Shown here: piece after piece, positions 10,711 to 15,144 of the stretch
Layout of the letters: each line of letters begins with the position of its first letter
How positions within the stretch are numbered: position 1 is the stretch's first letter
Virus record (IMG/VR): IMGVR_UViG_3300023180_000492
Location: 1 to 20,899 of that record
DNA length: 20,899 bases
From: a virus
Reading direction: 5' to 3' (one strand)
The notes under the pieces: generated by a model
What the model saw: the letters and a program-made list of their open reading frames with translations, nothing else
The model's database searches: none
What the model was told of the DNA's origin: nothing
Translations under genes and position numbers: made by a program

Positions 10711-11490
10711 GTGTCTATAAACAACTTTTTGGCAACTATGTCAGCTCAGGGCGGAATGTCCTATAGCAATAACTTCGTTGTAAAGTTTACGAATAATAGT
10801 GGTGAAAATTTATTTGAATTTTTATGTGATGAGGCACAACTTCCAAATGTTCAGGCAGCTTCTGGAACATTGAAGGGTAGATACATGGGGGAAGGGCAAG
10901 TAAACTATGCTCACACTAGAATATTCTCTGAATTTCAGCTTGGTTTCATGTGTGATGCTAATCTAGAACCTTTGAGATTTTTGAATAGTTGGTTTGGACA
11001 GATCTTTAATGAGGTGCCATATGAAGTAGGTCCAAATAGATCATTGGAAAAGCACCAGTCTCAAGATGATTTAAGACCATATAATAGAACTAATGCTTTA
11101 GCATATCCAGAACAATATTGCAATAATATAATTGTTACAAAAACAGAATCTGGTCCAAAATCTACAACACAAAGAGCACCAGTTTCTTATTACTTAGAGA
11201 GAGCATGGCCATATGCTATTGATGCTGTTCCTCTTCAGTTTGGTGCTTCTCAAATAACTAAAGTTTCGGCACAATTTTATTATACAAGACATCAAATTGA
11301 ATTTTCTGATAACAGGACAACCAAAAATGATGTCAGTGTTATGGATAATGAATTCTATCCAAATGAAAATGGTATTGGTGGATATAGATCTGTAGTTACT
11401 GGTAGCGCACAAACTCAGGCTGGTATTGAAGCAGCACAACAGTTTACTGGTCAGCAACAACTAAATCAAACAAATGCTGGTATAGCGTAG
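10711..11490 (+). CDS. Tail-tube-like baseplate protein, probably gp54-type initiator
   Basis: 259 residues from GTG at 10711 (250 from the ATG at 10738). GTG is preferred because the peptide SINNFLATMSAQGG reads as a coherent N-terminus and AGG lies eight bases upstream. The sequence is a beta-rich tube-like protein: NNFVVKFTN, EFLCDEAQLPNVQ, TRIFSEFQLGFMCDANLEPL, then AVPLQFGASQITKVSAQFYY, resembling the gp19/gp54 tail-tube fold with a longer Gln/Ala-rich tail. In T4, gp54 joins baseplate and tube. The choice between gp54 and another tube-junction protein is not certain. It opens the + strand tail block and is divergent from gp4. Confidence 0.65.
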   Translation: MSINNFLATMSAQGGMSYSNNFVVKFTNNSGENLFEFLCDEAQLPNVQAASGTLKGRYMGEGQVNYAHTRIFSEFQLGFMCDANLEPLRFLNSWFGQIFNEVPYEVGPNRSLEKHQSQDDLRPYNRTNALAYPEQYCNNIIVTKTESGPKSTTQRAPVSYYLERAWPYAIDAVPLQFGASQITKVSAQFYYTRHQIEFSDNRTTKNDVSVMDNEFYPNENGIGGYRSVVTGSAQTQAGIEAAQQFTGQQQLNQTNAGIA

Positions 11491-11591: not shown

Positions 11592-12305
11592 ATGGCATTG
11601 CCCGTTTTAGACTTGCCAACTTATGAGTTGGAAGTTCCATCAAGTAAGAAAAAAATCAAATATCGCCCATTTTTGGTAAAGGAAGAAAAAGTTTTATTAA
11701 TTGCTTTGGAGAGCAATGATGAAACAAATATCAAAAATGCGGTATTGAACCTAATCAAAGGATGTGTTCAATCTAGAATAAAAGTAGAAAATCTTTCAAT
11801 CTTTGATCTAGAGTATATTTTCTTGAATATCAGAGCAGTTTCTGTTGGTGAAATTATTGAAATGAATGTTACTTGTCTGGATGACAATGAAACACAAGTA
11901 AAATATAATTTGAATCTTGCTGATGTAGAAGTTTTCTTTCCAGAAGGACATGATACAAAAATCATGCTTACAGAGACAACGGGCGTAATTATGAAATATC
12001 CGTCTTTTGATCGTTTTGTGGAAGGATCTTTTGTAGATTCTGAAATTGATCAAGATACTGTTACTAAAGTTATTGCCGAATCTATCGATCAAATTTTCCA
12101 AGGTGATGATGTCTATGATGAATCTACAACTACTAAGAAAGAAATGATTGAATTTGTAGAAAATTTGACAAATGCTCAACTTGAAAAAATACAAACATTT
12201 TTTGAAACCTCTCCAAGACTCCAGCATAGTTTTAAGATAAAAAATCCAAATACTGGAGTTGAATCTGATTATGAAATAAGAGGACTGCAGAATTTTTTCG
12301 GATAG
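11592..12305 (+). CDS. 26: Baseplate hub assembly protein gp26-like, tape-measure chaperone
   Basis: 237 residues. N-terminal beta part LPTYELEVPSSKKKIKYRPF and FLVKEEKVLLIALES, then FDLEYIFLNIRAVSVGE, which identify the T4 gp26-type (T4_baseplate) family; the C-terminal half is helical (FVENLTNAQLEKIQTFFETSP). In T4, gp26 is a hub assembly component; its place just before the tape measure corresponds to the lambda G-type tail chaperone. Its last codons, AAT TTT TTC, contain a slippery heptamer, and a second frame continues past the stop (see the separate entry). It is longer than T4 gp26 (208 residues). Confidence 0.82.
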   Translation: MALPVLDLPTYELEVPSSKKKIKYRPFLVKEEKVLLIALESNDETNIKNAVLNLIKGCVQSRIKVENLSIFDLEYIFLNIRAVSVGEIIEMNVTCLDDNETQVKYNLNLADVEVFFPEGHDTKIMLTETTGVIMKYPSFDRFVEGSFVDSEIDQDTVTKVIAESIDQIFQGDDVYDESTTTKKEMIEFVENLTNAQLEKIQTFFETSPRLQHSFKIKNPNTGVESDYEIRGLQNFFG

Positions 12306-12484
12306 CCCTATTCCATAATAGTTTGGAGGGCTATTATAAAACTAATTTTGCTTTGATGCAGCATCATAAATATAGCTTGAGTGATATTGAATATATGATG
12401 CCATTTGAGCGACAGGTATATGTCGCTTTATTGATGCAATATCTAGAACAAGTCAAACAGCAACAACAAGCGGCACAAAAGTAA
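12275..12484 (+). CDS. 51: -1 frameshift extension, gp51-like domain
   Basis: The frame one base behind gp26 is open from 12275 to TAA at 12482-12484. If ribosomes slip at 12293-12299, the product is gp26 residues 1-236 plus 61 more, 297 in all. The extension has KYSLSDIEYMMPFERQVYVA, then LLMQYLEQVKQQQQAAQK, a pattern (YxLSDIxxMxPWERxxYVxLL) I associate with T4-like tail chaperones such as gp51. An independent start is unlikely: the only ATG in the conserved part (12356) has no ribosome site and would leave 42 residues. The TAA overlaps the tape-measure ATG. The lambda G/GT tail chaperones work the same way. Confidence 0.7.
   Translation, partial: NKRTAEFFRIALFHNSLEGYYKTNFALMQHHKYSLSDIEYMMPFERQVYVALLMQYLEQVKQQQQAAQK
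12293..12335 (+). promoter_or_regulatory. Probable -1 ribosomal frameshift signal
   Basis: Slippery heptamer T TTT TTC (12293-12299) in the correct gp26 phase. Two bases on, ATAGCCCT (12302-12309) pairs perfectly with AGGGCTAT (12327-12334); an inner CCA/TGG adds three pairs. If the weak A-T pairs at the base are open, the spacer is five bases. The gp26 TAG stop lies in the stem. Confidence 0.72.
12366..12372 (+). promoter_or_regulatory. Late-type promoter element before the tape measure
   Basis: CATAAATATAG (12365-12375), identical to the element at 10677, inside the frameshift extension and about 110 bases before the tape-measure start. Confidence 0.42.
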
Positions 12485-15144
12485 TGGCAGCAGGAACAGT
12501 TGACTATACTGATACTACTGGTAATAGGGATTATCTAGGTATTATTGGTAAACAGATTGGAAGGCGTTTGAAAGAAGCTTCCAATATGGCAGCGGAAGAA
12601 CGCGCCTTTGCTGCGAAGAAAGCAGAACAAGGTGGAACGTCTCTAGAAGAAGCGGGGATTGGTAAAGGATATTTTTTCAAAAGAGCCCTTGGTTCAAGAT
12701 TTGGTGGTGATAGAATTGCCAGAACTAGGGGCAGATTAGGAGCACAAGGTCCTGGTACAGATCCTACCAAGAACTTCAAACAAAGGTTTCGTGGAGGATT
12801 TGATTATAATGTAACCAATCAAATTAATCAGGTAACAAAAGAAGTTAGTAGTGCTGTTGTTCCAATGTCTAGCGCATTGGTAACAGGATTGCGTGGAGTA
12901 GAAGGTGGATTGAGTGATGTTGGGAATGCTGTAAATAATCTTTCTAATAGTATAGGACAACTTGCTAGATCTCAAGAAGATATGGCGAGAGAAGTGATGA
13001 TGATGGGCGCATTTATGCGTGCATTTATGTCATGGATGCAAAGACAGCAGTCTCGTTCTAGTGCAAATAAAGAAGAAAAATCTATTGAAAATGCACTGAA
13101 AAAACTTAAAGGCAGTAGTGGACGTGGTGGTAATATTCGTGGATTGCTCTCTGGCGGTGGTGGCGGTGCAAGCAAAGCACAAAGTGCTATTGGCGCTGCG
13201 TCTTCTATTGCCAATCTTGCAGGAATTGCAACAAATAAAAAAACTGGGCAAGCTTTAGAGTTACTAAGTAAGTCTCCTCAAGCTGCTGCTACTGCTGTTC
13301 GTGGTGCTCAAACAGGTAGTCGTATGTTATTGAGTGCTGGTCGTACTGGCATTTCTGTAACATCAAAAAAAATTACTGATGCTGTCATGAGAAGAAGTGC
13401 TCAAAACCTTGGCGCTAAATCACTACAAGAGGGTTTTGAAAATCAAAATGCAGCTGTCAAAACAAAAAAAGCGATAGGTGGTACTAGGGCAAATCCTAGA
13501 CAGATGCAATATGACATTATTCCTTTCCCAAAAGATCAACTGGGAAGAGCGATTGCGGCAGAACGAGGATTCAGGACTCCTGATGCCTGGTATGCTAAAC
13601 AGTGGTACGATATGGTAAACTACAGAGGAAAATCTTCTGAAGAAGCAGTTCAAGCAATTTTGAAAGTTGATCCTTCTGCAGCTGCTTTTTTACAATCAGC
13701 GAAGGAAACAGGAAAGAGCTTGGGTGCTACAACACTTGCTGGAGCAACACCTGGAAGCACTATTAATCAAGCTGTAAGAAGTAGTGATGATGCGTTGAAA
13801 ACTGCAATAGGTGCATCTGATGGTATACTGGCAAGATTATTTGGAAAAGGTATTGGTAAAAGTATAATGAAAAAAATACCAGTTCTTGCTGGTATTGCTG
13901 GTATTGTTTTTGGTATTCAGCGTGCATTGGAAGGAGACTTCTTAGGTGCTGGTCTTGAAATTACTTCTGGTATACTTGGTGCTACTGGCGTTGGCGCTGG
14001 TGCTAGTGTAGGTATTGATGCTTTCCTTATTGCTAGAGATTTGGGAATGGGAGTTCCAATGGCGGAAGGTGGTATTCCACTAGGCAGAAATGTTTCAGCA
14101 ATTTTGAATGATAGACCAGATAGAGCAAAAGAAGCAGTAATGCCTCTAACTAAGGAAACCTTTTTGTCATTTGGTGAAGGTGTTCTAGATGCACAAAAAC
14201 TGAGAAAGCGAGAAACAATAAAATTACATGCCGCTGGTTTATCTGAGTATTATGATAAACAGGGTGGATGGAAAACGTTTGCAGAAATTACTAAAGATGC
14301 TGGTAACTGGATAAAGAATTTTTTTGGTGGGTTAGGCATCGGCGGCGGCAAAGAAGAGGAAGACACACCAGCTGCTGGCGCTGGTGCTGATCCTACAACA
14401 ACAGTAGGTGTAGGAAGAAATAAAATGGAACAACATATTTTGGAGTTCCGACAAGCAAGAAATGAAAAGTTTGGAGTTACTAGTGAAAGAAATGCCTCTA
14501 ATACAACTGGTAACCTCATGATTAGAGACTTGAGAGCACAAGGATCAACTGGAAGAGATAGTACAATTAATCCATATGCAGATGATCTTTCATATCAAGT
14601 TGATGACCATCAAGGTGATGCACATAGACATGGATATGGATTTGATATACCAGTAGCAAATGCAGATCAAGCAGCATTTGTCATAGATTTTTGGCGCAAC
14701 AAGAGAGGATACAAGATACTATATGGAGATGCGGGACATAAAAATCATGTTCATGTTGAAGTTCCAAGAGCTAAAATGGAAGAATACATGAAAAAAGTGG
14801 AGGCAAAAGTAGAAAAAACTCCAGAGATGTCAAGTTTCAGAGAAGATCCTGAAGAAAATAGAATACTTCAAGAAAAAGAGAGATATAAAAAAATATCTTA
14901 TGATCCTAATAAAATATTTGATAAAACATCTGAAGATTTGAAAACTGCATCTCTGATGAATTCCAAATCTTTAGAAACTTCTGGACTTGGAATGTTCTCT
15001 ACACCGATCACAAATATAGTAAATAACAATTACTACGGTGGTGGACAAGAAGGAGGCGGTCAAATAGTGGATGAAGCTGCTAATCCATTTATAGCATCTG
15101 GGACAGACTTTGCTAGATTCAAGTTTGTTGCTGATCTAGGTTGA
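12484..15144 (+). CDS. Tail tape measure protein with M15-like peptidase domain
   Basis: 886 residues, the longest helical protein of the tail block, placed right after the chaperone pair. N-terminal third: Gly/Ala-rich, charged helices (VTNQINQVTKEVSSAVVPMSSAL, GGLSDVGNAVNNLSNSIGQL). Residues about 455-525 are hydrophobic and Gly-rich (PVLAGIAGIVFGI, LGAGLEITSGILGATGVGAG), as in tape measures that insert in membranes. Residues about 690-760 hold HRHGYGFD (H714, D721) and GHKNHVHVE (H755/H757), matching the SxHxxGxAxD and HxH zinc ligands of M15-type peptidases; this could open peptidoglycan during DNA entry. It sets tail length and occupies the T4 gp29 position. TAATG start overlap. Confidence 0.82.
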   Translation: MAAGTVDYTDTTGNRDYLGIIGKQIGRRLKEASNMAAEERAFAAKKAEQGGTSLEEAGIGKGYFFKRALGSRFGGDRIARTRGRLGAQGPGTDPTKNFKQRFRGGFDYNVTNQINQVTKEVSSAVVPMSSALVTGLRGVEGGLSDVGNAVNNLSNSIGQLARSQEDMAREVMMMGAFMRAFMSWMQRQQSRSSANKEEKSIENALKKLKGSSGRGGNIRGLLSGGGGGASKAQSAIGAASSIANLAGIATNKKTGQALELLSKSPQAAATAVRGAQTGSRMLLSAGRTGISVTSKKITDAVMRRSAQNLGAKSLQEGFENQNAAVKTKKAIGGTRANPRQMQYDIIPFPKDQLGRAIAAERGFRTPDAWYAKQWYDMVNYRGKSSEEAVQAILKVDPSAAAFLQSAKETGKSLGATTLAGATPGSTINQAVRSSDDALKTAIGASDGILARLFGKGIGKSIMKKIPVLAGIAGIVFGIQRALEGDFLGAGLEITSGILGATGVGAGASVGIDAFLIARDLGMGVPMAEGGIPLGRNVSAILNDRPDRAKEAVMPLTKETFLSFGEGVLDAQKLRKRETIKLHAAGLSEYYDKQGGWKTFAEITKDAGNWIKNFFGGLGIGGGKEEEDTPAAGAGADPTTTVGVGRNKMEQHILEFRQARNEKFGVTSERNASNTTGNLMIRDLRAQGSTGRDSTINPYADDLSYQVDDHQGDAHRHGYGFDIPVANADQAAFVIDFWRNKRGYKILYGDAGHKNHVHVEVPRAKMEEYMKKVEAKVEKTPEMSSFREDPEENRILQEKERYKKISYDPNKIFDKTSEDLKTASLMNSKSLETSGLGMFSTPITNIVNNNYYGGGQEGGGQIVDEAANPFIASGTDFARFKFVADLG

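Follow-up and report, generated by a model that had tools for sequence, protein, structure and literature searches.

How the gp26-type gene of this phage DNA ends, and whether the open -1 frame that begins shortly before its stop codon is translated as part of it, are the questions raised by the locus described here. The window analysed, a stretch of 20,899 nucleotides, had been proposed in the initial annotation to carry a -1 frameshift in the style of lambda G/GT. Sequence comparison makes it very probable that this one gene gives both a short and a long tail assembly chaperone through a programmed -1 frameshift just before the stop codon. The proposed lambda style of shift is supported by the conservation of the heptamer, the -1 frame and the downstream structure, and by the lack of a consistent free start. 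The comparison drew on phage genomes and viral contigs, in which 282 gp26 loci were collected from independent genomes and metagenomes, and on a non-redundant set of 144 loci obtained by clustering at 85% identity. The features of the window are listed in Table 1.

Table 1. Features in and around the proposed frameshift site, with positions in the window.
Feature	Position	Strand	Basis
Tail tube protein, 5' of gp26	10711..11490	+	PF23849 Phage_TTP_2, E=1.3e-67
gp26-type ORF, 237 aa, putative short tail assembly chaperone (TAC-N, lambda gpG role)	11592..12305	+	PF12322, PHROG_150, T4 gp26 homology
Putative Shine-Dalgarno-like stimulator GAGGA (GAGG 12280-12283, AGGA 12281-12284)	12280..12284	+	~9-10 nt before heptamer
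Slippery heptamer T_TTT_TTC (P-site TTT, A-site TTC; -1 re-pairing TTT TTT)	12293..12299	+	sequence
Putative -1 frame C-terminal domain, 61 codons + TAA (TAC-C; gp51 C-terminal domain)	12299..12484	+	PHROG_634, pN/pS, T4 gp51 homology
Predicted downstream hairpin, arms 12302-12309 / 12327-12334, loop 17 nt	12302..12334	+	fold vs synonymous recoding
0-frame stop TAG of gp26, one codon after heptamer	12303..12305	+	sequence
886-aa ORF, presumed tape measure protein	12484..15144	+	starts in TAATG overlap; identity from position and length

The gp26-type ORF matches PF12322 (T4_baseplate) in Pfam with E=6.4e-68 and PHROG_150 ('baseplate hub') with E=6.1e-74. It follows the tail tube gene and precedes a long, tape-measure-like ORF, which is the usual order for a chaperone gene. 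Free of stop codons from 12275 onwards, the -1 frame has its post-slip stretch at 12299-12481 and ends in a TAA (12482-12484) that overlaps the ATG with which the 886-aa ORF begins, as had been pointed out. The predicted long product has 236 + 61 = 297 aa, in agreement with the size first estimated. For its -1 encoded part the search gave PHROG_634 'baseplate hub assembly catalyst' (E=1.9e-26) and also the terminal part of PHROG_150, the gp26 profile, because that family takes in two-domain single chains such as T4 gp51. No credible match was found for the -1 domain in Pfam or NCBIfam, nor for either gp26 or the -1 domain in a sequence search of the PDB. Pfam gave no tape-measure family match to the 886-aa ORF, the C-terminal stretch of which contains a D-Ala-D-Ala peptidase-like H...D...HVHVE pattern; its counterparts are annotated as peptidase M15 in P-HM2 and as an oxygenase in ACG-2014j.

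The 0-frame end of gp26 reads AAT TTT TTC GGA TAG, and T_TTT_TTC fits the X_XXZ_ZZN motif with cognate A-site re-pairing. The initial annotation was right about the phase of the heptamer; its distance of six bases from the stop counts from the TTC codon, the true gap being the single codon GGA (3 nt). A T6 run followed by C, T or G is found in phase 0-2 codons ahead of the gp26 stop in 279/282 loci, and the spacing between heptamer and stop is one codon in 134 of the 144 non-redundant relatives. Elsewhere in gp26 bodies, in-phase XXXYYYZ heptamers occur at 157 of 33,686 codon positions, and of 25 window genes checked only three carry an in-phase heptamer of any kind within the final 10 codons. 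The codon ahead of the T6 run is NNT in all 144 relatives, whether it specifies Ser, Asn, Asp, Ala or Gly (given codon usage, log10 P is about -28, a value that treats the loci as independent, which they are not fully). The Phe-Phe pair at the site is encoded as TTT TTC in 131/144, while Phe-Phe elsewhere in gp26 is usually TTC TTT, with TTTTTC in 7 of 146 cases. In E. coli, ribosomes are prone to shift on U_UU.Y tetramers and UUY heptamers (PMC4066793); the frameshift efficiencies cited here are all from that organism, and the host ribosome is presumably cyanobacterial.

Transcriptional slippage at the T6 run could also generate the -1 product, since T runs can make the polymerase slip and runs of T7-T8 are present at the site in some relatives. 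The run is, however, nearly always exactly T6 followed by C in strict codon phase (131/144), known bacterial cases involve about 9 As or Ts (PMC5009743), and the SD-like and hairpin elements described below suit slippage by the ribosome. We consider a transcriptional origin extremely unlikely.

The -1 frame is open in 282/282 loci and, wherever it is complete, continues for 161 nt or more beyond the stop; the domain it encodes is under purifying selection, with a pN/pS of 0.17 against the relatives of the window. This is in line with the coherent domain that had been described in the open frame. Alignment of the junction across relatives had been suggested as a check, and both heptamer and -1 frame hold in it, with no single continuous frame seen. 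As homopolymer runs are error-prone, the apparent frameshift might reflect a sequencing error, or else a decayed gene, but the out-of-frame arrangement recurs in every one of these loci from independent genomes and metagenomes and the selection on the -1 domain speaks against decay, so that this explanation can practically be discounted.

The -1 ORF could instead be a free-standing small gene, as the 'gp51' annotations of P-SSM2 and P-HM2 would have it, with its own start codon or re-initiation after the gp26 stop and no fusion to gp26. An ATG close to the end of gp26 is indeed present, and annotated as such a start, in some relatives, and in the window there is an in-frame ATG at 12356, with TTG codons at 12323 and 12353 as further candidates. 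The earlier statement that the frame has no start codon of its own was therefore too strong, although it holds in that all three candidates lie inside the conserved domain and none has a Shine-Dalgarno sequence at a usable distance. The column of Met12356 is occupied by I, V, L, K or H in 34/144 relatives, in 39 of the 144 loci the -1 frame is free of ATG, GTG and TTG codons as far as 10 codons beyond the heptamer, and any -1 frame start with a Shine-Dalgarno sequence is present in only 6/144, five of these being ATG. A free gene would also leave the invariant heptamer, the NNT rule and an SD-like site placed for slippage unexplained, and in T4 gp51 both domains are on one chain. Such a gene is thus very unlikely, and a frameshifted fusion is the reading that we follow below.

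In line with the initial annotation, T4 uses the separate genes 26 and 51 where the cyanophages appear to rely on one gene and recoding. The junction had been described as a gp26-like chaperone joined to a gp51-like tail; the frameshift in this description is supported, while the nature of the tail is refined by profile comparison. The 297-aa fusion aligns with T4 gp51 collinearly over its full length (243 columns, hhalign probability 99.2) and the -1 C-domain alone aligns with the gp51 C-terminus (probability 95.9). The 237-aa product aligns with T4 gp26, and the T4 gp26 and gp51 profiles are themselves homologous to each other (98.7). Since the fusion is collinear with T4 gp51, the whole predicted 297-aa chain is the equivalent of gp51 (lambda GT) and the 237-aa chain that of gp26, rather than the long form being gp26 with gp51 added. 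T4 gp26 (L096:5803-6429) ends in R-G-L-K-E-F-F, with codons GAG TTC TTT at the last three residues; the T6 run is absent and the -1 frame is closed at once. The long form of T4 comes from gene 51, and the two genes are divergently transcribed. T4 thus keeps the GLKEFF residues without T6, which argues against the protein sequence as the reason for T6 in the other phages, and this end of T4 gp26 would fit a relic of the slip site from when duplication replaced slippage.

Structure prediction, for which the model alignment comprised viral contig loci only, gave an AlphaFold model of gp26 with a pLDDT of 86.5, the top Foldseek match of which in the PDB was the HK97 tail assembly chaperone 2OB9. 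Residues 1-94 of the model matched 3fgx, 2ob9 (HK97 TAC) and 3klu with Z of 7.0-7.2, a moderate score below 8, with Z falling to 2.8 at rank 5; a TAC fold of the N-domain is thereby suggested. The -1 domain was modelled as three helices (pLDDT 75.5), for which Foldseek returned no match.

Upstream of the heptamer there is a further element that had not been recorded before. By the published spacing rule an SD-like stimulator lies 6-17 nt ahead of the motif (PMC4066793), and such a sequence is found there in 112/144 relatives compared with 10% of control positions; in the window GAGG lies at 10 nt and AGGA at 9 nt. Synonymous codon choice at the site is biased, with Glu encoded by GAG in 74% of cases against a background of 29% and Gly by GGG in 24% against 6%. 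The predicted pairing with the anti-SD tail of 16S rRNA is -6.67 kcal/mol, compared with -5.26 kcal/mol after synonymous resampling, and none of 200 trials was as low.

The 8-bp stem described downstream of the heptamer is real, with arms ATAGCCCT and AGGGCTAT, and begins 2 nt past it, closer than the 4-10 nt rule. The minimum free energy fold also pairs TTCC with GGAG inside the hairpin, and the core, GCCC...GGGC, has an energy of -9.8 kcal/mol and begins its G-C pairs at +6. A hairpin by the strict published rule is found in 58/144 relatives. Folding is stronger than in dinucleotide shuffles (mean z -2.95, the gp26 body being about 0) and than in synonymous recodings, with z of -3.8 for the window, a family median of -2.0 and -0.6 for control stretches. 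The exact stem has 8/8 pairs in the window and 7/8 in one relative (L009) and is broken in most close relatives, so it is nearly specific to the window and what is conserved is only some hairpin. RNAalifold found no structure shared by 131 aligned junctions and a search of Rfam gave no match; as the register of the stem shifts between clades, structure was tested per sequence only. The position of the hairpin is conserved while its sequence and register are not, the stem of the window being one clade's version. By the measures used here, both the SD-like GAGG and the hairpin are under selection beyond coding needs.

From these elements, their conservation and the homologies we infer that slippage takes place, how often it does so, and that the products act as chaperones in this phage. 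Most ribosomes would terminate at 12303 (TAG) and so yield the 237-aa short form. Some would pause at T_TTT_TTC, aided by pairing of GAGG with 16S rRNA some 10 nt upstream and by the hairpin downstream, and the two Phe tRNAs would re-pair one base back, most likely by simultaneous or P-site-led -1 slippage. Translation of 61 more codons would then give the 297-aa long form as a minority product. On the model of lambda gpG/gpGT, the tape measure protein would be coated by many short forms, and a few long forms would use their -1 encoded domain to bring in tail tube subunits.

In Ackermannviridae and related phages (L006:2209-2405, L098, L101, L288, L289, L290) a homologous -1 ORF is also seen past the gp26 stop. 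In place of a canonical heptamer these loci show just T_TTC (ATT TTC ATT TAA or CTT TTC AAG TAA). In E. coli only one tetramer is more shift-prone than U_UU.C (PMC4066793), and a single-tRNA slip is therefore possible there. It is conceivable, at perhaps a little under an even chance, that a dnaX-like three-part signal of SD-like element, T_TTT_TTC and hairpin in the chaperone gene is ancestral to the whole T4 superfamily. It would have been kept in Kyanoviridae, KVP40-like Vibrio phages, Pootjesviridae and others, replaced in the T4 branch by duplication into 26 and 51, and reduced in Ackermannviridae to a bare T_TTC tetramer.

Xu, Hendrix and Duda reportedly described the lambda gpG/gpGT shift and conserved tail-chaperone -1 frameshifts in 2004. 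The conservation of these shifts, lambda included, was reviewed in 2016, with T4 still excepted from the frameshifted tail chaperones (PMC5009743). According to PMC10885494 and PMC12846349, which cite it, the 2022 work of Vladimirov, Gautam and Davidson (Virology 566:9) recognised the tail chaperones of T4-like phages; the citing papers also mention a short gene with a longer fusion gene in some T4-like phages (PMC10885494) and poly-T sites as known frameshift signals in TAC-N genes of T4-like phages (PMC12846349). The kind of system is thus, going by these papers, already known from lambda G/GT and from T4-like tail chaperones. In the literature consulted, with Virology 566:9 represented by the papers citing it, we found no account of the SD-like element, the quantitative conservation or the annotation of this genome.

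That routine gene calling would miss the fusion had been anticipated, and the database records of 25 annotated relatives contain no joined chaperone CDS (0/25). The entries named 'gp51' in P-HM2 (L091:1297-1389, 30 aa) and P-SSM2 (L090:1210-1383) are -1 domain fragments with arbitrary starts. A single joined CDS of 297 aa would replace gp26 and the missing or arbitrarily started 'gp51', giving marine T4-like cyanophages a defined pair of putative tail-length chaperones. Cyanophages and T4 would offer a natural comparison of two proteins made by recoding and by gene duplication, and the upstream element suggests an SD-based slippage stimulator acting on cyanobacterial ribosomes.

The arrangement resembles lambda gpG/gpGT in that one gene, just 5' of the tape measure position, would give a short product and one extended in the -1 frame; it differs in having T_TTT_TTC rather than lambda's heptamer, a larger gp26-family N-domain and a conserved SD-like stimulator. 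As in E. coli dnaX, an SD-like element lies upstream of a slippery heptamer and a stem-loop downstream, but heptamer and host are different, and the dnaX shift gives a shorter product where the one predicted here is longer. The Vandenendeviridae phage Adele (PMC12846349) likewise has a poly-T site and a -1 frame that is open in every genome and missed by routine annotation, although it belongs to a different family and uses a GTTTTT motif. With T4 the likeness is in the proteins, the short and long forms being full-length homologues of gp26 and gp51, and the difference in how they are made: T4 has two divergently transcribed genes and has lost the T6 run and the -1 frame, whereas the cyanophages would use one gene and recoding.
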